Source: a virus
IMG/VR virus record: IMGVR_UViG_3300042519_000444
Location: 1-24,837 of that record
Length of the DNA: 24,837 nt
Strand: one strand, 5' to 3'
The notes under the pieces were generated by a model that searched no databases, was not told the DNA's origin, and saw nothing but the letters and a program-made list of their open reading frames with translations. How positions within the stretch are numbered: position 1 is the stretch's first letter; every line of letters begins with the position of its first letter. Shown here in pieces: positions 4,773 through 20,077 of the stretch. A program made the translations under genes and the position numbers.

Positions 4773-5569
4773 TATCCACCAAATCCAAACGCACGCTTAA
4801 ACGAACTAGCCAAATCTACTGCTTCTTCCTTAGCATTCTTGGTAAACTTCCAAGCATCCATGTTCTTAACATCTTTAACGAATTCACTAATAGGCTTAAT
4901 GGTTCCATCAACCTTAGCGATAGCACCTTGAAGTACTGGATTAGTTACAGATAAAGTATTGGGATCTACTTCTAGTAGTGATGCCATAGTATTGATGTAC
5001 GGACTAGCAAGATCCTTTAGAGTTAACTTTGGATTCTGACGTAGGCGATCAGCAAAACCACTGTATAATTGCGCAGCAGATTCACGGTAACTATTAAAGA
5101 TTTCTTCTGCAGTCTTTTGTCCAGATATAACTGACTGCATATCTTTAGCGAATACAGATGAACCATAGTTGAGACCCATACCATCTGCATATGAAGATAG
5201 TTCATCAATAGTCTGACGTGCAGCCCCACCAAACTTACCTGACTGAATAACGGCAGGTGCTAATCCTTGAAGATATTCTTCCATGAATAGATTAGGATTA
5301 AAAGAATAACTTGTTTGTGAAGTAGAACCATCTTTACCAGACTGACGAGTAGCATAACGCTTTTCTAGTTTCTGTAGTTGTCCATAGAATACAGTAAATG
5401 CTTTAGGGTCATAGTAACCATATAGTTCAGTCATAGCCTTACGGAATGTAGAACGAGAGTCTTCACGTGTAGTTAAATTGTAGGATACGCTTGAGTATGA
5501 ACCACTTTTACTAACAGTGTCAATATTAGTTGGCTCTTTACTTTTTGCTATCTCTGCGCCGTTTGCCAT
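4772..5569 (-). CDS. Virion-associated protein, unknown family
   Basis: 265 aa, no recognised motif. It has a Lys/Ser/Thr-rich N-terminus (about 1-35), a helical middle (RSTFRKAMTELYGYYDPKAF, KLEKRYATRQ), and a C-terminus ending DLASSFKRAFGFGG. The TAATG overlaps at both ends tie it to the 1881-aa protein upstream and the 362-aa protein downstream, implying coordinated, near-stoichiometric synthesis. I infer an internal virion or head-tail role from this placement. An adaptor or tail function cannot be excluded. Confidence 0.5.
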   Translation of the reverse strand: MANGAEIAKSKEPTNIDTVSKSGSYSSVSYNLTTREDSRSTFRKAMTELYGYYDPKAFTVFYGQLQKLEKRYATRQSGKDGSTSQTSYSFNPNLFMEEYLQGLAPAVIQSGKFGGAARQTIDELSSYADGMGLNYGSSVFAKDMQSVISGQKTAEEIFNSYRESAAQLYSGFADRLRQNPKLTLKDLASPYINTMASLLEVDPNTLSVTNPVLQGAIAKVDGTIKPISEFVKDVKNMDAWKFTKNAKEEAVDLASSFKRAFGFGG

Positions 5570-8500
5570 TACAGTCCTTCATCTAATTCTGTGAATGATG
5601 GGATATCTTCTAATACGTCATTGGATATATAGCGATCATACATACGCCCAAATGCAGGGTATTGATCAATGATTGCTTTTGCCACTTCATCACGCCATTC
5701 TAGTATCCAGCGATTCTGTTTAGTATCAGCACCTGCAACACCAGTACGGGCTGCTTCCTGCTCTAACTTATCCTTGAATACTTCACGTGCTTCCATATAA
5801 GTTTGTAAGCCCTTAATTGCATCAGAGTTCTTGCCCACCGTATTCATAAACTTTTTGTCAGATAGTAATCTATTTACAATTGCTAGATTGTTTGTTGACT
5901 TATCTGTCTGGAATGTATCCGGACGAGTAGCCCAGATAGGGAACTTCTGTTCTATTTCTAGTTCTACTGCATCTTTCCAGGGCTTGTACTGCTCTTTGTA
6001 AGTATCAGAGTTCTTTGAGATGCCGCGATCTTCTGCATGCTTCTCAATGTATTCAATGTTAGAGTAGTATAATTCCGTAGCCATTGAATACTGTTGACGT
6101 TTAGCACGTTCATTAACATTATCTAATTTACTACGTAAAGGTTTACCATTGATAGTAGTAGAGAACATCTTGTCTTCAACAAATTGACTATAATCTTCAG
6201 TTGGATTACCAGAACTAAACAACTCACCTAGTAGTGGGTTGTCAGGGAATAGGTAATCGATCTGTTCGACTAATCCAATATTTTGTTCTAGGTTCTTTAG
6301 TGTTTGTGGTGTAGCAAGTAAACCTAAACGGTTATCCGTAGAACGTGTGGTAAAGATCTTAGATATAGTACCAGCCATAGGTGTATTGTAGCGATCTTCA
6401 ATGCGTGCTGTTAGTTCTAATGCAGCCTTATCGGAGTCACCCTTGTAATCTTTACGTAGTTTATTAAACTCAGTTTCAAGATTACGTGACTCAGTATCAC
6501 CTAGTTTGAATCCGACAATAGGACCAAAGAATGATGCAGCAGCCTCAACCCATAATGAGTTAGTTGCTAGATATGCTGCTTCTTGCTTAATAGCATCATC
6601 ATCAATCGATTGATTATTCAGCATTTTATTCATTACAATCATATCTTGTGCTGCTGTATAACGTGCATTGAATCGTTGGTTTGCTTCATCACTTGCAAGT
6701 CTAGAGTTACCCTTGCGGATTGCAGCCATGGCAGATATCATCCAAGAGTTCATTGGATTAATATTGGTTATAGCGGATTCAGGTAAAGTCTTGCCATATG
6801 TCTTTTCATAGTACGGCATGATATACTTGTTAACGATATCTTCAGCATTCTTACCGAATAACTTCATTGATATCTCGTCAGGATTAGACCTAACTAGTGC
6901 GTATGACAAACCTGTTTGTGCTACTGGTCCACCTATAGTAGGTAGAATTGGGAATTGACCCTGTGTAATTACATCGATAGCAGTAGGATCTACACGTAAT
7001 TCTGTTTTACCAGTTTTCTTACGTATGTATCCGCCAACGCCTTCGGTACCTAAACCTAAGATAATCGTATCTCTTTTAGTAGACCAAGGATTACCAGATG
7101 CAACTAAGTTACCATCTTCATCATATACCACACCAGCACGGTATGGTGCATTGTATGCATTAACCATTAGTGCTGCAATTTCTGGATTCTGTGATACTGT
7201 GTTTAACCAGAACCGACTTGAGTTCTGATGTGCCATGTAGAATGGTGACACAAAGCGCATTAACGAACCTAAATCAGTGTAGCGTTCTATTGAATATAGA
7301 CGTTGCATAAGTTCTTTATAGGCACGTGTAGTTGCAGTATTCTTAATCTTATCTGCATACTGTGCAACCATTGCGTTTGCCTCAGACTCTGATTTACCTT
7401 GAGCCTTTGCTTGCTTACGGATAACAGTAGATAGGCGACGTGCTTCAGCATCGTGTACCATATTGTAGAATGGATGACGTACTAAATGATCTTCAGGTAA
7501 TGTAGCAACATACTTGAATATATTAGATACTACGTTACGCCATATCTTAGCCTGTGCATTAACGCGTTCTGAGTTAGCCATAACTGGATTGCGTACATTT
7601 AATGGTATGTTAGCAGATACTGCTGCAGTTACTTTACCTTCTGCTGCAGCCTGTGTTAATGACATTGCCTTGCCATCTATATCTACAGTAATAGGAGAGC
7701 CAAATTCATCTACATCAGGCAAGTACTGTGCTCTAATTTGTACGAACTGACGATCTACGAGATCGGAAATAGTTTGTCCATTAGGCTTATAGTTAGTGCT
7801 TAAGTTAGTTTTCTGATCGCGTACGTATGAGCGTGCCTGTGGATCTGAACTCTTTAACCAGGTTAAGATTTCTTTTTTAATTGCTAGTGGCTTCTTACCT
7901 TCAGCAAGACCTACGACTATACGCGAACCTACAGCATCCTTCATGATGATGTTGTTTACATATTCAGAATGCGCAGATACCCATAATGGTTCATCAATAA
8001 CAATCTCACGCACTTCATTTCCACTACTAAATACGTGTAAACCAGTTACTCTATTGTCATCATTAAGCATACGTAAAGAAGATGAGCCAGAAGATGTTGC
8101 TCTGCGTAGCATTTCACTAGCATCACCAGCAAGAGATTGACCAATGAATACACCATCAGCAATTTCAATCTTATCCTCAAAGGATCTCTGTAATCTAGCC
8201 TTAGCGCTTGCTTTTTCTTGAACTGCTACGAACTTACCACGAACTTTATCGTGATCCACAAAGATTAACTTAGCATTGTCGATATGCTTATCTAATCGTG
8301 CAATAAAGAACTGTAAGTCTTTAATATCACCAGCAAGACTAGGAGATAATGTCTTTTTGTCTATTGCTGATAGTTTTTGTGCAAGTTCATCATACAAATT
8401 ATTGATATGATCTAGTGCTTGTGACGCTTCTTTAGATCCCATAGTACTAGATATGCGGTATGCTTCTTTGAAGTCACCATCAAGCAGTGATCTAACGACA

Positions 8501-11214
8501 TTTCCCTGTGAACCAGGCAAAGAATTAGTATTATTGATCTTGCGATAGGTATTAATTACCAGTCTTGCAGCAACTTTATCTTCTCTACTACCAATGTGTC
8601 CAACAATGTTGTCAACTTTACCAGAAATTACAGCAAGTGGGAATGAAACACTATCATTAGCCTGTAGTAACTCTTCGCTTAACTCTTTAGAACGTTGAGA
8701 AATTGCTTTATCTATAAACTCTTTGGTACGACGACTTGGTGCACCTATAGCAAGGGATACTTTTTTCTCGGATTGCAATAAGTTTTCATTAATGCGATTA
8801 AGTTTTATACTATTAACGCGTGCACCAGTACGTGTTTTTACGTTTGCTCCAATTCTAGATGGAGCGCGTAATGCTTCGCCAGCACTACCACGTATAATCA
8901 TGTCTGTCCACGAAAATCCATACTTTGAATTCATGTCCATCATGGATGCACCTACACGTAACCATCCTTCAAAGATATTACGTGTAGTATATTTAAGACT
9001 TAGTAATGTAGTTGGCTTCCAGACGAATGTTTGGTAAATATCCATTATATCGGTTAGTCTATCTTTACCAACTTTAAGTCTACCTTTAGTAATATCACCT
9101 GCGGTGGCAACAGTACCTTGAGTTGCTTCACGGAATTTTCTATCCTGAGCAATCATATTCTTTATTTGCTTTGGACTTAAATCATCAGCAACAATCTGTT
9201 GTAAGAAACCTTTAAATGCTAAATGGTTTTCTTGAACAATGTCAGATACTTCTTTCATGTTCAATGCAAAATGATTATTAGGCATTTGAGTAGCAAATGC
9301 TGGGTCATTCATTAGAGATGCACGTACTTCAGCAATATCTTTTTTACTTGCCTGTGCTAAACCACGTTTGTTTGCACGTACAAGTGCAAGTGAGTTAACT
9401 AATTTTTCAACTTCCGTCTGAGCAAGTACTGAACCAGAACGTGAATCAATCATGGTATAGTTCTTTTCGAGAACATCACGGATTAACTTAGTACGCTGTA
9501 CATTTGTTTCACGAACAATATGATTAGTAAACTCATCTAGTGCAGCGATCTGCTTTTTAGATAGTCTACCGTATTGTTGTGGAAATTGCTTCTTAACAAT
9601 TCCAGTTAAAGTATCACGCTGTAAGCGTTCAGCAAATCGGAATCGCTCATCAGCCGTTGTTAACTTACTGTAGTTTTCTGCATACTTGCGTGCGGTAGCA
9701 GGTGATATGTCACCATACTTAACTGATTGCTGTAAGCGTGAATTAACTTCTTTGTATGAGAACTTTGCTGGGATACCATCAATGATCATATTACCAGCAG
9801 GTACTTCGCGTAACTGTTGATTAGGACTTACCCAGTATGCAGCACGAACAAAACGTGGACCAGTTCCACCAACCATAGTAGATACTTGTTTAGCCATTGA
9901 TAGATCACTAATAGGATCTACCTCGCCCCAGAATCCTTTAGCATTTACTTCTGCCATGGATGTACGAATACGTTCTAATCTATTAAATTTAGACCATGTT
10001 GTATTAGCAGCACCAAGAAGAGTATCTGTACCAGTACCTTCTAGCGCCTTTACTGAGTTAGTTGGAAGTGCACCGACACGTTGTTCAAGATTCTTTCGTT
10101 CTTTGTTTACGTTCTTGTATTCGGTACTTAAACTTTTCTTTTGTTGCCTTAAGGTTTCAATTTGATTGATTAACTTTTTATTAGTTTCTTCAATTTGTTG
10201 AATCTTCTTTGCGGAAAGATTTAGACGTGAAGTATTTTGAAGTCTATTCTTTTCTTGTTTCATAGTAGAAATTTTTGATTCAATTGATTCTACACGCTGA
10301 GAATACTTATTGACTAATACTGATAATTCATCATTACGCGATACAAGTTTATTAAAAGTTACATTGTCTCCAACCATAACCTTAATTACGTTACCAACTT
10401 CGGCACGACCACCATATGCGTATGCAGAACGTAATGCTTGTGCTGCAACCTGTGGATTAGCGCTATCTGCAACTACACCATAACGAATGATACCTTGAAT
10501 ATCTTTTGAGTTCTCAACTGCATCAATAAGAGGTTTAACACCATTATCGATACCTTCAACAGCATCATTGATTTCTTTGGTGAATGTTTCAACACGTGTA
10601 CGTGATGTGATACGGCTAGCAAAACCTGTATTACGTGCAACTGGACGAGATAACGTGGCAACTTTAACACCAGTAGCAATTTTACCAAGGCGATAGAATG
10701 GATCGAATATAGTGCTAACGCTAGCATCAACTAGACCAGACCAGAACTGTGCGGAGCCAGAAGTAAAGTAACTCTCAACACTATTAGTATCTGCCCAGTC
10801 TACTTTATCAGTACCTTGAGTACCAGGAGTTAAGTCACCAACAAGTGCAACCATAGCACGACCAGGAGAAATAGAACGTCGCCATTCATTGCCTGGTTGA
10901 TTGCTATAGAAAGATCCAGAAGCACGTTTAGAGTCTTCTTTTGCTTTCTCGAACTGATCACCTAGAGATAGGTTCTTGTTTTGCTCACGGTAGTTACTAT
11001 TGGCAACAAGTAGTGCAGCAGTTAAAGGTGGAGCAATCTTCTCACGATACAGGTAGCCATATTTATCGGCTGCCTTACCAAGAGTGTCAATTGTTTTCTG
11101 TCCAGCCTCGGTTTCGTAAACTTCACCAAGTGCTTTTTTACCAAGTTCAATTGCATCTGCTTTGGTACGTTCAAACCAATTCTTGTCAGTTGGTTGTGGT
11201 GTAGTGTTCGACAC
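5569..11214 (-). CDS. Giant (1881 aa) virion-associated protein, predicted internal/ejection protein
   Basis: 1881 aa, by far the largest product here. Start is GTG, overlapping the preceding TAG as TAGTG. Residues about 57-72 (REKIAPPLTAALLVAN) are mildly hydrophobic; residues about 293-382 form a long Lys/Glu/Gln-rich coiled coil (ESKISTMKQEKNRLQN, NKKLINQIETLRQQKKSL); the rest is mostly helical. A later region contains LMRFVSPFYMAHQNSSRFWL, a motif style I associate with large phage internal proteins. I find no clear enzymatic signature. The gene lies between portal and scaffold, where a tape measure is not expected, and is followed by two helical proteins, so an ejection protein like T7 gp16 or a capsid-internal protein is the best guess. 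A giant polyvalent virion protein with hidden enzymatic domains is the alternative. Confidence 0.6.
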   Translation of the reverse strand: MSNTTPQPTDKNWFERTKADAIELGKKALGEVYETEAGQKTIDTLGKAADKYGYLYREKIAPPLTAALLVANSNYREQNKNLSLGDQFEKAKEDSKRASGSFYSNQPGNEWRRSISPGRAMVALVGDLTPGTQGTDKVDWADTNSVESYFTSGSAQFWSGLVDASVSTIFDPFYRLGKIATGVKVATLSRPVARNTGFASRITSRTRVETFTKEINDAVEGIDNGVKPLIDAVENSKDIQGIIRYGVVADSANPQVAAQALRSAYAYGGRAEVGNVIKVMVGDNVTFNKLVSRNDELSVLVNKYSQRVESIESKISTMKQEKNRLQNTSRLNLSAKKIQQIEETNKKLINQIETLRQQKKSLSTEYKNVNKERKNLEQRVGALPTNSVKALEGTGTDTLLGAANTTWSKFNRLERIRTSMAEVNAKGFWGEVDPISDLSMAKQVSTMVGGTGPRFVRAAYWVSPNQQLREVPAGNMIIDGIPAKFSYKEVNSRLQQSVKYGDISPATARKYAENYSKLTTADERFRFAERLQRDTLTGIVKKQFPQQYGRLSKKQIAALDEFTNHIVRETNVQRTKLIRDVLEKNYTMIDSRSGSVLAQTEVEKLVNSLALVRANKRGLAQASKKDIAEVRASLMNDPAFATQMPNNHFALNMKEVSDIVQENHLAFKGFLQQIVADDLSPKQIKNMIAQDRKFREATQGTVATAGDITKGRLKVGKDRLTDIMDIYQTFVWKPTTLLSLKYTTRNIFEGWLRVGASMMDMNSKYGFSWTDMIIRGSAGEALRAPSRIGANVKTRTGARVNSIKLNRINENLLQSEKKVSLAIGAPSRRTKEFIDKAISQRSKELSEELLQANDSVSFPLAVISGKVDNIVGHIGSREDKVAARLVINTYRKINNTNSLPGSQGNVVRSLLDGDFKEAYRISSTMGSKEASQALDHINNLYDELAQKLSAIDKKTLSPSLAGDIKDLQFFIARLDKHIDNAKLIFVDHDKVRGKFVAVQEKASAKARLQRSFEDKIEIADGVFIGQSLAGDASEMLRRATSSGSSSLRMLNDDNRVTGLHVFSSGNEVREIVIDEPLWVSAHSEYVNNIIMKDAVGSRIVVGLAEGKKPLAIKKEILTWLKSSDPQARSYVRDQKTNLSTNYKPNGQTISDLVDRQFVQIRAQYLPDVDEFGSPITVDIDGKAMSLTQAAAEGKVTAAVSANIPLNVRNPVMANSERVNAQAKIWRNVVSNIFKYVATLPEDHLVRHPFYNMVHDAEARRLSTVIRKQAKAQGKSESEANAMVAQYADKIKNTATTRAYKELMQRLYSIERYTDLGSLMRFVSPFYMAHQNSSRFWLNTVSQNPEIAALMVNAYNAPYRAGVVYDEDGNLVASGNPWSTKRDTIILGLGTEGVGGYIRKKTGKTELRVDPTAIDVITQGQFPILPTIGGPVAQTGLSYALVRSNPDEISMKLFGKNAEDIVNKYIMPYYEKTYGKTLPESAITNINPMNSWMISAMAAIRKGNSRLASDEANQRFNARYTAAQDMIVMNKMLNNQSIDDDAIKQEAAYLATNSLWVEAAASFFGPIVGFKLGDTESRNLETEFNKLRKDYKGDSDKAALELTARIEDRYNTPMAGTISKIFTTRSTDNRLGLLATPQTLKNLEQNIGLVEQIDYLFPDNPLLGELFSSGNPTEDYSQFVEDKMFSTTINGKPLRSKLDNVNERAKRQQYSMATELYYSNIEYIEKHAEDRGISKNSDTYKEQYKPWKDAVELEIEQKFPIWATRPDTFQTDKSTNNLAIVNRLLSDKKFMNTVGKNSDAIKGLQTYMEAREVFKDKLEQEAARTGVAGADTKQNRWILEWRDEVAKAIIDQYPAFGRMYDRYISNDVLEDIPSFTELDEGL

Positions 11215-15442: not shown

Positions 15443-15486
15443 AATACGTCCTCAATATAAACATCAAATAACAACCATATATATAA

Positions 15487-15539
15487 GCGACCCACAAGGG
15501 GTCGCGTTATGTTATATTCTACGCTGCACAAGGCAGCGT
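15487..15539. repeat. Two tandem hairpins with identical ACAAG loop
   Basis: Hairpin 1 is GCGACCC-ACAAG-GGGTCGC (15487-15505). Hairpin 2 is ACGCTGC-ACAAG-GCAGCGT (15521-15539). Both have 7-bp perfect stems of different sequence around the same 5-nt loop, and each borders a TATATATA tract. They lie 45 to 97 bp upstream of the terminase start, probably in the late leader. Confidence 0.7.
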
Positions 15540-15582
15540 TATATATATAAAACCCTACATATATACTAACCCCATTAAAAGG

Positions 15583-15604
15583 GTCCCCGTAACGCATTGG
15601 GGAC
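15583..15604. repeat. 6-bp inverted repeat, possible terminator
   Basis: GTCCCC and GGGGAC flank a 10-nt loop. ATTTTTA follows 6 nt downstream on the plus strand, so it could act as a weak intrinsic terminator in that direction. Confidence 0.35.
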
Positions 15605-15615
15605 GAACTATTTTT

Positions 15616-15633
15616 ATGTGACTTACGTCACAT
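15616..15633. promoter_or_regulatory. CRP/FNR-family consensus operator
   Basis: ATGTGACTTACGTCACAT is an 18-bp inverted repeat that matches the CRP-family consensus TGTGA-N6-TCACA exactly. CRP/GlxR-type regulators of Actinobacteria use this consensus. Its centre is about 180 bp upstream of the terminase start, so it could place the late promoter under a host cAMP-type regulator. Binding is inferred. Confidence 0.5.
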
Positions 15634-15760
15634 GGCAATAACTCAATGGTACCAAGGGGTTCCGAAATACAGCACGAAAAATTATATGAGAGTAATATAT
15701 ATATAATCTCACCTGCTTTAATAACCGTAGGTCTGTTTTTGTTCTCGGTGTCTGTCCATA

Positions 15761-15808
15761 GTTGCCTTCAGGCAACAAATACCCTGCACCTAGTCACCGA
15801 TAGGTGAC
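15761..15808. repeat. Two adjacent 6-bp hairpins with tetraloops
   Basis: GTTGCC-TTCA-GGCAAC (15761-15776) and GTCACC-GATA-GGTGAC (15793-15808) are perfect inverted repeats 16 bp apart. Both fall in the non-coding control region; neither has a T-run. Their role is unknown. Confidence 0.5.
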
Positions 15809-15855
15809 CCATGTTTAATAAGTTTCTATTTATTTAATAAATAACTTTTATTTGT
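15809..15855. other. AT-rich stretch, candidate unwinding element
   Basis: About 47 bp nearly devoid of G and C, including the inverted repeat TTATTTA-A-TAAATAA. Flanked by palindromes in the divergent control region, it would suit a DNA unwinding element, but no recognised initiator boxes accompany it. Confidence 0.3.
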
Positions 15856-15983
15856 GGTGATCACAGTCCACTCGCACCTATTCGGCGCACCTGTAAAACC
15901 TTTAACCCTTATTCCAATGGGTAATTAGTGAATGCCTTTTAAAAGCGATTCAAGCCCTATTTCAGACACTTACCCATCAAGTT

Positions 15984-15997
15984 GGTACTCGAGTACC
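15984..15997. promoter_or_regulatory. Perfect 14-bp palindrome, candidate operator
   Basis: GGTACTCGAGTACC is self-complementary over all 14 bases. The core CTCGAG recurs at 16130-16135 and inside the hairpin at 16197-16202, giving three copies in about 215 bp. It may be a dimeric regulator site. Confidence 0.4.
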
Positions 15998-16025
15998 CTT
16001 CAGCCGTAAACGGCGCTTTATGTTC

Positions 16026-16055
16026 ACTTTAACTAAAGTGCGCTTTAACTAAAGG
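16026..16055. repeat. Paired palindromic repeat, copy A
   Basis: Two 14-bp units, ACTTTAACTAAAGT (16026-16039) and GCTTTAACTAAAGG (16042-16055), with a 16-bp period. Each is an imperfect palindrome with 6-bp (5-bp in the second) arms. It lies 175 bp upstream of the first early gene. The same pair recurs at 16808, 17147 and 17891. Candidate operators for a shared early-gene regulator. Confidence 0.8.
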
Positions 16056-16175
16056 GAATTTGCCAGACACGCGACACGCCCAAATTCAATAACTCGATGG
16101 ATTTTGCGTTTAGCCCGTAATCCCTTATGCTCGAGTCATAACTGAATAGCGGAATTGCTTAGGTCGCTTTTGTGG

Positions 16176-16210
16176 CTAACTAATTCGAGCAAATTGCTCG
16201 AGTTGGTTAG
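16176..16210 (+). promoter_or_regulatory. Long leader hairpin just before the first early gene
   Basis: Arms 16176-16192 and 16194-16210 pair over 17 positions around a central A, with 15 Watson-Crick pairs and two G-T (G-U in RNA) pairs. The ribosome binding site AAAGGA begins 6 nt later. It may stabilise the message 5' end, control ribosome access, or act as a DNA operator. Confidence 0.6.
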
Positions 16211-16230
16211 TCATGAAAGGACTAGAAAAA

Positions 16231-17920: not shown

Positions 17921-17943
17921 GACTTAACGTAAGGAGAAATGGA

Positions 17944-19233
17944 ATGACGATTATGTTAGAAGGTATTAACCCACTAACAGGGTCAGTGGTAGTTGATGGT
18001 GATATGACACCTGATACTCACCCACTATCAAACGCGGTACGAGAATGTGAGATGTGTTCTAATCCGTTTATGTATCATGAGAATGATGAGGAATCATTGT
18101 CAATAAAAACAGGTAGGTATAACTATGAGTTAAGTACTAGTATATATACTTATTATTATATATGTCCTACCTGTACCAATGAGTGTACTTCATGTGGCAC
18201 TAGGCGACCAGCACTAGACGATATGAACTACTCTTATCTTCTCAATACACGTTACTTCAAGGGAATGTGTGAGAGTTGTTCTGATGAGCATTACTGTTGT
18301 GAGAACTGTAGTGATGTGATCTATCAAGATGATGTTGAATGGATAAGTGACAGTGCCTACTGTATGAACTGTCGTAGTCGTATATCAGAGTGGTGTTCTA
18401 TATGTGATCAGTATGAATACAACACTGACTTATGTACACCACATGATGACAACATACATAACTATGGATATAAACCTGACCCAGTATTCTATGGTCAGGA
18501 TAAAATCAATAGTCACTTACGATTCGGTATTGAGTTAGAGGTTGAGGCTAAGTCTGGTGACTTAAACGAGGGTTCGGAACTCATGACGAATGAGTGGGGT
18601 GACTTCTGTTATCTCAAGGAGGATAGTTCACTTAACTTTGGGTTCGAGATAGTAACGCACCCTGCTAGTTTAGAGTACTATCAGAATGAGATCAGTTGGA
18701 ACACTATAAATAGGTTACGTGACTTAGGGTTTAGGTCATGGAATACGAGTACCTGTGGTCTGCATGTGCATATAGATAGACGTGCATTCAAGGATCGCAC
18801 TCACTTACTAGCGTTTACCTATCTGCTTAACAATAATACTGGGTTATCCCAGCATTTAGCAGGTCGTAACTCGCACGAGTATGCCTATATAGGTAGTGAT
18901 AGTAAGCACAACAACCTACGTACTATCAAGGGTCATGGTCGTGGTCGTGGTGGTGACAGGTACTTGGCTATCAACCTACAAAATAGTACAACTGTTGAGA
19001 TACGTATGTTCAAGGGTTCGCTCAAGGTCGAGCGTATTCTCAGCGGTATCGAGTACTGTCATGCACTTGTGCAGTACTCACGTGACATCAGGAGTGGCAA
19101 CAATGCAAGCGTAATGCTACGACCTGAGGAGTTCACATCTTGGATACGTAAGCAAGGTAAGTATCCTAATCTGGTGCAATTCTTGCCAGACTTTGAAGTA
19201 ATCGAACAAGACAACAATCAAATGGAGGAATAA
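17944..19233 (+). CDS. Amidoligase (GS-like COOH-NH2 ligase) with N-terminal zinc ribbons
   Basis: 429 aa. Residues about 195-360 match the phage/bacterial amidoligase family, ATP-dependent enzymes with a glutamine-synthetase-like fold that join a carboxylate to an amine: FGIELEVE (194-201, metal-binding Glu), LKEDSSLNFGFEIVTHPAS (224-242), the CGLHVHID signature (271-278) and NLQNSTTVEIRMFKGSL (344-360). Residues 35-164 hold seven CXXC pairs (first at 35/38, last at 151/154), i.e. several zinc ribbons, which may bind a substrate protein or nucleic acid. AAGGAG gives a clear start. The next gene, 1 bp after the stop, is a class II glutamine amidotransferase that could supply ammonia. The substrate is unknown; peptide, protein or metabolite modification is possible. 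Confidence 0.85.
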   Translation: MTIMLEGINPLTGSVVVDGDMTPDTHPLSNAVRECEMCSNPFMYHENDEESLSIKTGRYNYELSTSIYTYYYICPTCTNECTSCGTRRPALDDMNYSYLLNTRYFKGMCESCSDEHYCCENCSDVIYQDDVEWISDSAYCMNCRSRISEWCSICDQYEYNTDLCTPHDDNIHNYGYKPDPVFYGQDKINSHLRFGIELEVEAKSGDLNEGSELMTNEWGDFCYLKEDSSLNFGFEIVTHPASLEYYQNEISWNTINRLRDLGFRSWNTSTCGLHVHIDRRAFKDRTHLLAFTYLLNNNTGLSQHLAGRNSHEYAYIGSDSKHNNLRTIKGHGRGRGGDRYLAINLQNSTTVEIRMFKGSLKVERILSGIEYCHALVQYSRDIRSGNNASVMLRPEEFTSWIRKQGKYPNLVQFLPDFEVIEQDNNQMEE

Positions 19234-19234
19234 T

Positions 19235-20077
19235 ATGTGTCTACTAATGGTATCAATGGGTCAAGCACCCGACTATAATCACATCAGCAATGCGAACATC
19301 AATAACCCTGACGGCTTTGGGTTTGCAGTACATACGGGTGACCGTATCATAACAAGTCGTGGCATGAATCCACAGAAAACTGTGGATAAATTCTACGACA
19401 CCTTAGATAAGGCAGGGAAAGACTTCGTTGCTATCTATCACTCACGCATTACTACACATGGTGACAGTATCGTAGAGAATGCTCACCCATTCAAGGTAGA
19501 TGGGCGTAGCGATCTCATCTTGGCACACAATGGTATGTTACCTATCCACCCAAAGGCAGGTGATCGCAGATCAGACACCCGTATCTTTGCTGAGGATATC
19601 ATGGTTAACATGGGTATAGAGATGTTAGATGATAAGCATTCGTTTGCTAGGCTAGAGGACTGGGCTGCAGGTAGTAAGATTGCTATCTTATCTAATGCGC
19701 CAGAGTTACGTGACTCTGTATACATTGTCAACGAACACTTAGGTGCATGGGAAGGTGACATCTGGTGGTCTAACAGTAGTTACAAGAATGCTTATACATT
19801 CTATGGCACAGGTTACTACGGTGCTAGTCGTGGGCTGTGGTCTACTGATGACCTACTAGAGTCGGATCGTCAAGCCCTAATCGGTATCGAATCAGAGGGG
19901 CAATACATTAATGGCACAGAGTTATGTTACACTTGTTACATACCTATCAGTGAGGAAAGTTATTACGAGGGTGTGTGTAGTGCGTGTAACTCATGCTTAG
20001 ATTGTTTCGATAGTTCAAACAACTGCATGTGTTACTCACCTGCAACTGCTAATTGGTGGAATGAGGTGGAAGTATAA
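19235..20077 (+). CDS. Class II glutamine amidotransferase with C-terminal zinc ribbon
   Basis: 280 aa. After Met removal, Cys2 would be the N-terminal nucleophile that hydrolyses glutamine. Family motifs follow in order: NPDGFGFA (24-31), IYHSRITTHG (67-76, substrate-binding Arg71), NAHPF (82-86) and LAHNGML (96-102, oxyanion-hole Asn99/Gly100). Residues 231-266 add eight cysteines (CYTC, CSACNSCLDC, CMC), a zinc-ribbon-like tail not needed for catalysis and reminiscent of the ribbons in the amidoligase. GGAGGA stands before the ATG. Immediate adjacency to the amidoligase suggests the two work as one enzyme, the amidotransferase releasing ammonia and the ligase using it or its own amine substrate. 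Confidence 0.85.
   Translation: MCLLMVSMGQAPDYNHISNANINNPDGFGFAVHTGDRIITSRGMNPQKTVDKFYDTLDKAGKDFVAIYHSRITTHGDSIVENAHPFKVDGRSDLILAHNGMLPIHPKAGDRRSDTRIFAEDIMVNMGIEMLDDKHSFARLEDWAAGSKIAILSNAPELRDSVYIVNEHLGAWEGDIWWSNSSYKNAYTFYGTGYYGASRGLWSTDDLLESDRQALIGIESEGQYINGTELCYTCYIPISEESYYEGVCSACNSCLDCFDSSNNCMCYSPATANWWNEVEV

Follow-up and report, generated by a model that had tools for sequence, protein, structure and literature searches.

What do two phage genes that encode, side by side, a ligase and a glutamine amidotransferase accomplish together, and on which target? The pair that raises this question lies in a 24,837-base virus record from IMG/VR, analysed over its whole length (hereafter the window), whose minus-strand left half carries structural genes (major head protein, portal, and terminase) and whose plus-strand right half carries early-type genes, among them those for a Holliday junction resolvase, a Cas4-like nuclease, a DnaB-like ATPase, and a WhiB-like regulator, the last of which suggests that the host is an actinobacterium. 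The ligase and amidotransferase genes belong to this early half. A divergent intergenic region of ~770 bases (15443-16212), containing G+C-rich hairpins at 15487-15505 and 15583-15604, separates the two transcription halves. The minus strand also encodes a 1881-aa protein (phrog_10618, 5569-11214), which takes up nearly one quarter of the record with the portal on one side and the capsid genes on the other, and a collagen-like protein with GPTGPTG repeats (224-1126) that is probably a tail or fibre component.

The ligase

The first gene of the pair (17944-19233, plus strand), preceded in the sequence by the ribosome-binding site AAGGAG (17931-17936), encodes a 429-aa protein assigned by its ORF and by Pfam, PHROG, and fold matches to the amidoligases of the GS/GCS fold. 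Its score against Pfam Amidoligase_2 (PF12224) is 36.5 bits, above the curated cut-off of 22, and 49 of 50 homologues match the same family; it also matches PHROG families of unknown function, and 323 viral relatives of this ligase were found. An earlier note on this DNA had described intact GIELE and CGLHVHID motifs and seven CXXC pairs ahead of the catalytic domain, all of which we located. GIELE (residues 195-199, 18526-18540) contains Glu197 and Glu199, predicted from homologue conservation and the structural model to bind metal. The homologue alignment further delimits a conserved block D227-x-S229...E235-I-V237 (18622-18654), CGLHVHID with His274 and His276 (residues 271-278, 18754-18777), and a GS-type E-x-R motif, E352-x-R354 (18997-19005). 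Thirteen positions (G195, E197, E199, D227, S229, E235, G272, H274, H276, N344, T350, E352, and R354) are invariant in 97 of 98 homologues. In an AlphaFold2 model built from 50 relatives (mean pLDDT 80), the E-x-E, H-x-H, and E-x-R motifs sit on predicted strands 194-202, 272-278, and 350-357, and a Foldseek search with this model returned YbdK as best match (5e-7), followed by glutamine synthetases (GS, 5e-5) and the depupylase Dop. The model thus supports a GS/GCS-fold amidoligase with the intact GS-like active site that the note had predicted.

The class II glutamine amidotransferase

The second gene (19235-20077, plus strand) begins after a gap of one base, confirming the adjacency of the two genes, and each has its own purine-rich ribosome-binding site, that of the second (GGAGGA, 19224-19229) lying, as read from the sequence, within the ligase 3' end. 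ORF, family, and fold matches identify its 280-aa product as a class II glutamine amidotransferase (GAT-II) of the NTN type, GATase_4-like, with the full signature of the class: a Cys right after the start Met, an R-x-x-T-x-G loop, and HNG. The catalytic Cys2 (19238-19240), predicted to be the N-terminal nucleophile after Met removal, is conserved in 97 of 97 homologues, and His69, Arg71, Thr74, Gly76, Asn82, and His84 in 96 of them; the glutamine-binding loop H69-S-R71-I-T-T74-H-G76 (19439-19462) and the oxyanion motif H98-N99-G100 (19526-19534) were recognized in the homologue alignment. Cys2, Arg71, and Asn99, together with eight C-terminal cysteines, are accordingly all where the earlier reading of the sequence had placed them, and the features of the two proteins go far beyond what chance would produce. 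The model of this protein (mean pLDDT 83) retrieved with Foldseek the glutaminase domain of GlmS/GFAT (GFAT-1, 1e-6) and also EgtC. This fold match and the conserved residues support an NTN-type class II glutaminase fold whose active site is intact. Both genes are under purifying selection.

Joint inheritance of the two genes

We drew 80 viral loci from the 323 ligase relatives with the ligase as sole selection criterion, and in all 80 a GAT-II ORF lies directly downstream on the same strand, at a spacing of up to ~60 bases or with a short overlap; these loci are not independent, most of them coming from one actinophage group with a common terminase and WhiB gene. The same arrangement recurs in independent lineages, namely mycobacteriophage Marvin, the Methylophilales phages MEP401 and MEP402, ctgrD200, faecal phage contigs, and L011/L099, as well as in mycobacterial plasmids (M. 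abscessus and M. intracellulare). A GAT-II gene also follows the ligase directly in 76 of 80 bacterial loci, mainly from Ruminococcus and other Clostridia, and many of the bacterial loci adjoin relaxases and recombinases. Among relatives of the window chosen by their terminase, and counted only if at least 5 kb were present on the right side, nine carry both genes, 13 lack both, and none carries a single one, which shows that the pair is an accessory unit whose genes travel together. Ligase distances correlate with GAT distances at 0.93 across 48 loci, and the partial correlation given the terminase is 0.785, with none of 2000 permutations as high; physical linkage contributes to this agreement. 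Homologues standing apart had been set beforehand as the outcome that would speak against the pair; they stand together instead, and the two genes are almost always kept or lost jointly, whether in phages, on plasmids, or in other mobile DNA, a near-obligate association in which one ligase family has two GAT-II subfamilies as partners.

We followed two apparent exceptions. The Clostridioides phage AR1086-1 encodes a genuine ligase homologue devoid of the zinc-finger array, and no GAT-II was detected anywhere in its 130 kb record, so that this ligase may draw on free ammonia or on some other amine. In the Bifidobacterium phage BP677P1 (L012:1840-4076), the ligase motifs upstream of the GAT are split over two frames, GVEVE and GGHIH in one and TIELR in another, which reflects a frameshifted gene or, possibly, a programmed frameshift. 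Actinocatenispora comari has the order ligase-GAT-ligase, with two different zinc-fingered ligases around one ribbon-bearing GAT. One R. flavefaciens genome contains four ligase loci (L272-L274 and L116), three of them within ~77 kb of one contig; those examined in this species are near relaxase or recombinase genes. In two pair-free relatives of the window (L219:3496-4972 and L230:3423-4887), unrelated genes occupy the place of the pair, including one for a ~325-aa protein.

The presence of related pairs, in several copies, in bacterial genomes could suggest that they serve as metabolic scavengers, which would tap the host's pools of glutamine and glutamate for the synthesis or cleavage of small amides or antibiotics and play no part in host takeover, and cellular GS/GCS-fold ligases are indeed often directed to metabolites. 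However, the relaxase and recombinase neighbours of many bacterial copies and the rarity of the window-type GAT in Actinomycetes genomes (1 of 297) look like equipment of mobile elements rather than core metabolism, and we consider such a role very improbable. A known anti-phage defence system was also rejected, as PADLOC models gave no match to the ligase, the GAT, or their relatives.

Predicted zinc fingers and ribbons

The N-terminal third of the ligase (18046-18435) contains seven CXXC pairs (C35/38, 74/77, 81/84, 109/112, 119/122, 140/143, and 151/154), all before the catalytic domain, plus C164. A profile of the ligase family searched against the PDB matched LIM-type zinc-finger proteins (best E 8e-4), and, from the cysteine pattern and this profile match, the region is best described, with modest confidence, as tandem LIM-like fingers. 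The GAT ends in a predicted ribbon (19925-20032) with eight cysteines at 231, 234, 248, 251, 254, 257, 264, and 266, in the pattern CxxC-x13-CxxCxxCxxC-x6-CxC established from the homologue alignment, each retained by 75 to 82 of the 97 loci; a DksA/TraR-like finger was matched in only 1 of 42 members. The cysteines of both proteins would bind zinc.

The earlier note had suggested that the two proteins share a zinc-ribbon docking system, an idea that comparison of the cysteine counts in both partners did not support in that form. In Clostridia the ligase mostly keeps 6-7 CXXC pairs but the partner GAT, a member of a different class II subfamily (HTRxxTQG), has a tail without CXXC in 74 of 77 loci, and the pairs of MEP401/402 and L011/L096-L101 have few or no ribbons. 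Ribbons are thus an add-on that pairing can do without, and shared docking is rejected as its general basis. The eight-cysteine ribbon, found also in the mycobacterial plasmid homologues and in Actinocatenispora, looks like a feature of actinobacterial elements, within which a common docking system might operate. The note's alternative, a common target such as the ribosome, RNA polymerase, or DNA, is a conjecture that these comparisons neither favour nor disfavour.

Tandem LIM-like fingers, usually protein-binding modules, raise the alternative that they grip a protein target, such as the host RNA polymerase, the ribosome, or a phage protein, on which the same amidation or a peptide-ligation chemistry would act in the style of Pup conjugation. 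The return of Dop, a Pup deamidase, in the ligase fold search goes in the same direction, although its similarity is weaker than that of YbdK. Considering in addition that homologous pairs exist without ribbons and that no gene for a Pup-like protein or tag was noticed adjoining the pair, we judge a protein target unlikely.

Relationship to known systems

The combination of an amidoligase with a GAT-II is already on record in phages: mycobacteriophage Marvin and podovirus cassettes already have annotated examples of the pair, a precedent absent from the earlier note. In Marvin (cluster S, Marvinvirus), gp105 and gp106 are a ligase and a GAT-II encoded side by side and ordered as in the window (~27% and ~31% identity, respectively), with CXXC ribbons on both proteins and the same eight-cysteine GAT tail. 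They differ from the window in the gene gap (~80 bases), in the number of CXXC pairs in the ligase (four vs. seven), and in one motif (YGYHIH vs. CGLHVH), and the annotation reads only ‘glutamine amidotransferase domain’. Since this two-gene, ribbon-bearing architecture already exists in Marvin, the window pair belongs to a known kind of system. The Methylophilales phages MEP401 (gp05-06) and MEP402 (gp06-07) have the same pair in the same order, published as amidoligase and GATase, but with a long, different N-terminus, few cysteines, and no GAT ribbon.

The ‘peptidoglycan modification cassette’ of phiEco32, LUZ24, and PSA-HP1 (Iyer 2009; Hardies 2013) likewise has, among early genes, a PF12224 amidoligase adjoining a GAT-II; the combination in LUZ24-like phages is described in PMC3890496, and its prediction for phiEco32-type phages is attributed to Iyer 2009 in the passages of PMC10580990 and PMC5498523 that cite it. 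LUZ24 gp18 and gp19 show weak profile homology to the window ligase and GAT families. In contrast with the window, LUZ24 also encodes a COOH-NH2 ligase, a RimK-like ATP-grasp protein, and a gamma-glutamyl cyclotransferase, and its GAT is of the GlmS type. Neither PF14395 (COOH-NH2 ligase) nor PF06094 (gamma-glutamyl cyclotransferase) had a match in the window or in seven ~40 kb relatives, whereas the LUZ24 control was matched; PF08443 (RimK-like ATP-grasp) matched nothing in the window or its relatives, nor in the LUZ24 positive control. What distinguishes the window group from the LUZ24 cassette is its two-gene form, its finger arrays, and the lack of the COOH-NH2 ligase and gamma-glutamyl cyclotransferase. 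To our knowledge, the peptidoglycan activity of the phiEco32/LUZ24 cassette is, in the literature too, a prediction.

Proposed glutamine-dependent amidation and its main rival

Glutamine hydrolysis is the common activity of GAT-II subfamilies (GlmS, PurF, and AsnB) and, as it is shared by both subfamilies found beside this ligase family, the pair is most simply read as an ATP-dependent ligase supplied with ammonia by its partner. We propose, with a probability of about 0.45, that this accessory early gene pair encodes a two-subunit glutamine-dependent amide synthetase that takes its ammonia from the GAT and most likely acts on a host envelope precursor. In the putative complex, the GAT would hydrolyse glutamine at Cys2 and hand the ammonia to the ligase, which would use ATP and Mg to turn a carboxylate into an activated acyl phosphate before forming the amide; Glu197/Glu199, His274/His276, Glu352, and Arg354 are the candidate residues for the ATP/Mg step. 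Presenting or recruiting the target would fall to the ligase's LIM-like fingers, joined in actinobacterial elements by the GAT ribbon. The weakest step of the proposal is the nature of this target: a host cell-envelope precursor appears the likeliest, and its modification might alter the cell surface or block rivals. No gene adjoining the pair indicates peptidoglycan. A precedent for a zinc-ribbon, ATP-dependent ligase with a separate glutaminase subunit acting on lipid II is the solved MurT/GatD (PMC6113224), and cell-wall modification is predicted for amidoligase and GAT-II pairs in the passages of PMC5498523 and PMC10580990 that cite Iyer 2009. MurT/GatD can serve as an analogy only, the folds being unrelated: it combines a Mur-ligase fold with a class I GATase and its Cys-His-Asp triad, whereas the window proteins have GS/GCS and NTN folds.

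The family relationships of the GAT bring in the main rival. The nearest Pfam family of the window GAT is GATase_4 (PF13230), at 21.8 bits just below the curated cut-off of 23, and all 42 aligned relatives match it at E<=0.01. One of its members is EgtC, a gamma-glutamyl hydrolase acting without ammonia transfer, and this, with the appearance of EgtC in the fold search, counts against the amidation reading, as does the GAT-free ligase of phage AR1086-1. As with EgtA/EgtC of ergothioneine biosynthesis, which also associate a GCS-type ligase with a GAT-II-fold protein, the window ligase might join the gamma-carboxyl of glutamate to an amine carried by a metabolite, peptide, or protein, and the GAT-fold amidohydrolase would later remove the gamma-glutamyl group. 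YbdK, to which the ligase model is closest in fold, is a gamma-glutamyl ligase relative, and gamma-glutamyl cyclotransferases occur in the fuller cassettes of LUZ24 and Arthrobacter phages. However, the EgtC model TIGR03442 matches only 3 of the 42 relatives, weakly, and not the window GAT, whose membership of EgtC is thereby rejected; no other egt genes were seen; and the partner GAT in Clostridia and LUZ24 is of the GlmS/PurF type, whose known role is ammonia transfer. We consider this gamma-glutamyl conjugation and removal rather unlikely, and the preferred reading remains glutamine-dependent amidation.

A broader, equally doubtful conjecture is that the pair is a transferable, self-contained module, carried by phages, mycobacterial plasmids, and Ruminococcus relaxase elements, in which the LIM-like fingers would pick out a host macromolecule for an undescribed glutamine-dependent amidation or gamma-glutamyl modification that may serve host control or the exclusion of rivals.

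Implications

Predictions of amidoligase and GAT-II pairs in phages reportedly date back to 2009, and we found no report in the literature of a tested activity for them. With a minimum of two genes, intact catalytic residues, hundreds of viral ligase relatives, and homologues on plasmids and chromosomal mobile elements, the window pair is the simplest form in which the substrate can be sought. The presence of homologues in Marvin, a culturable phage of M. smegmatis, makes gene deletion combined with mass spectrometry of lipid II or proteins feasible, and the substrate question of amidoligase and GAT-II pairs is now easier to test.
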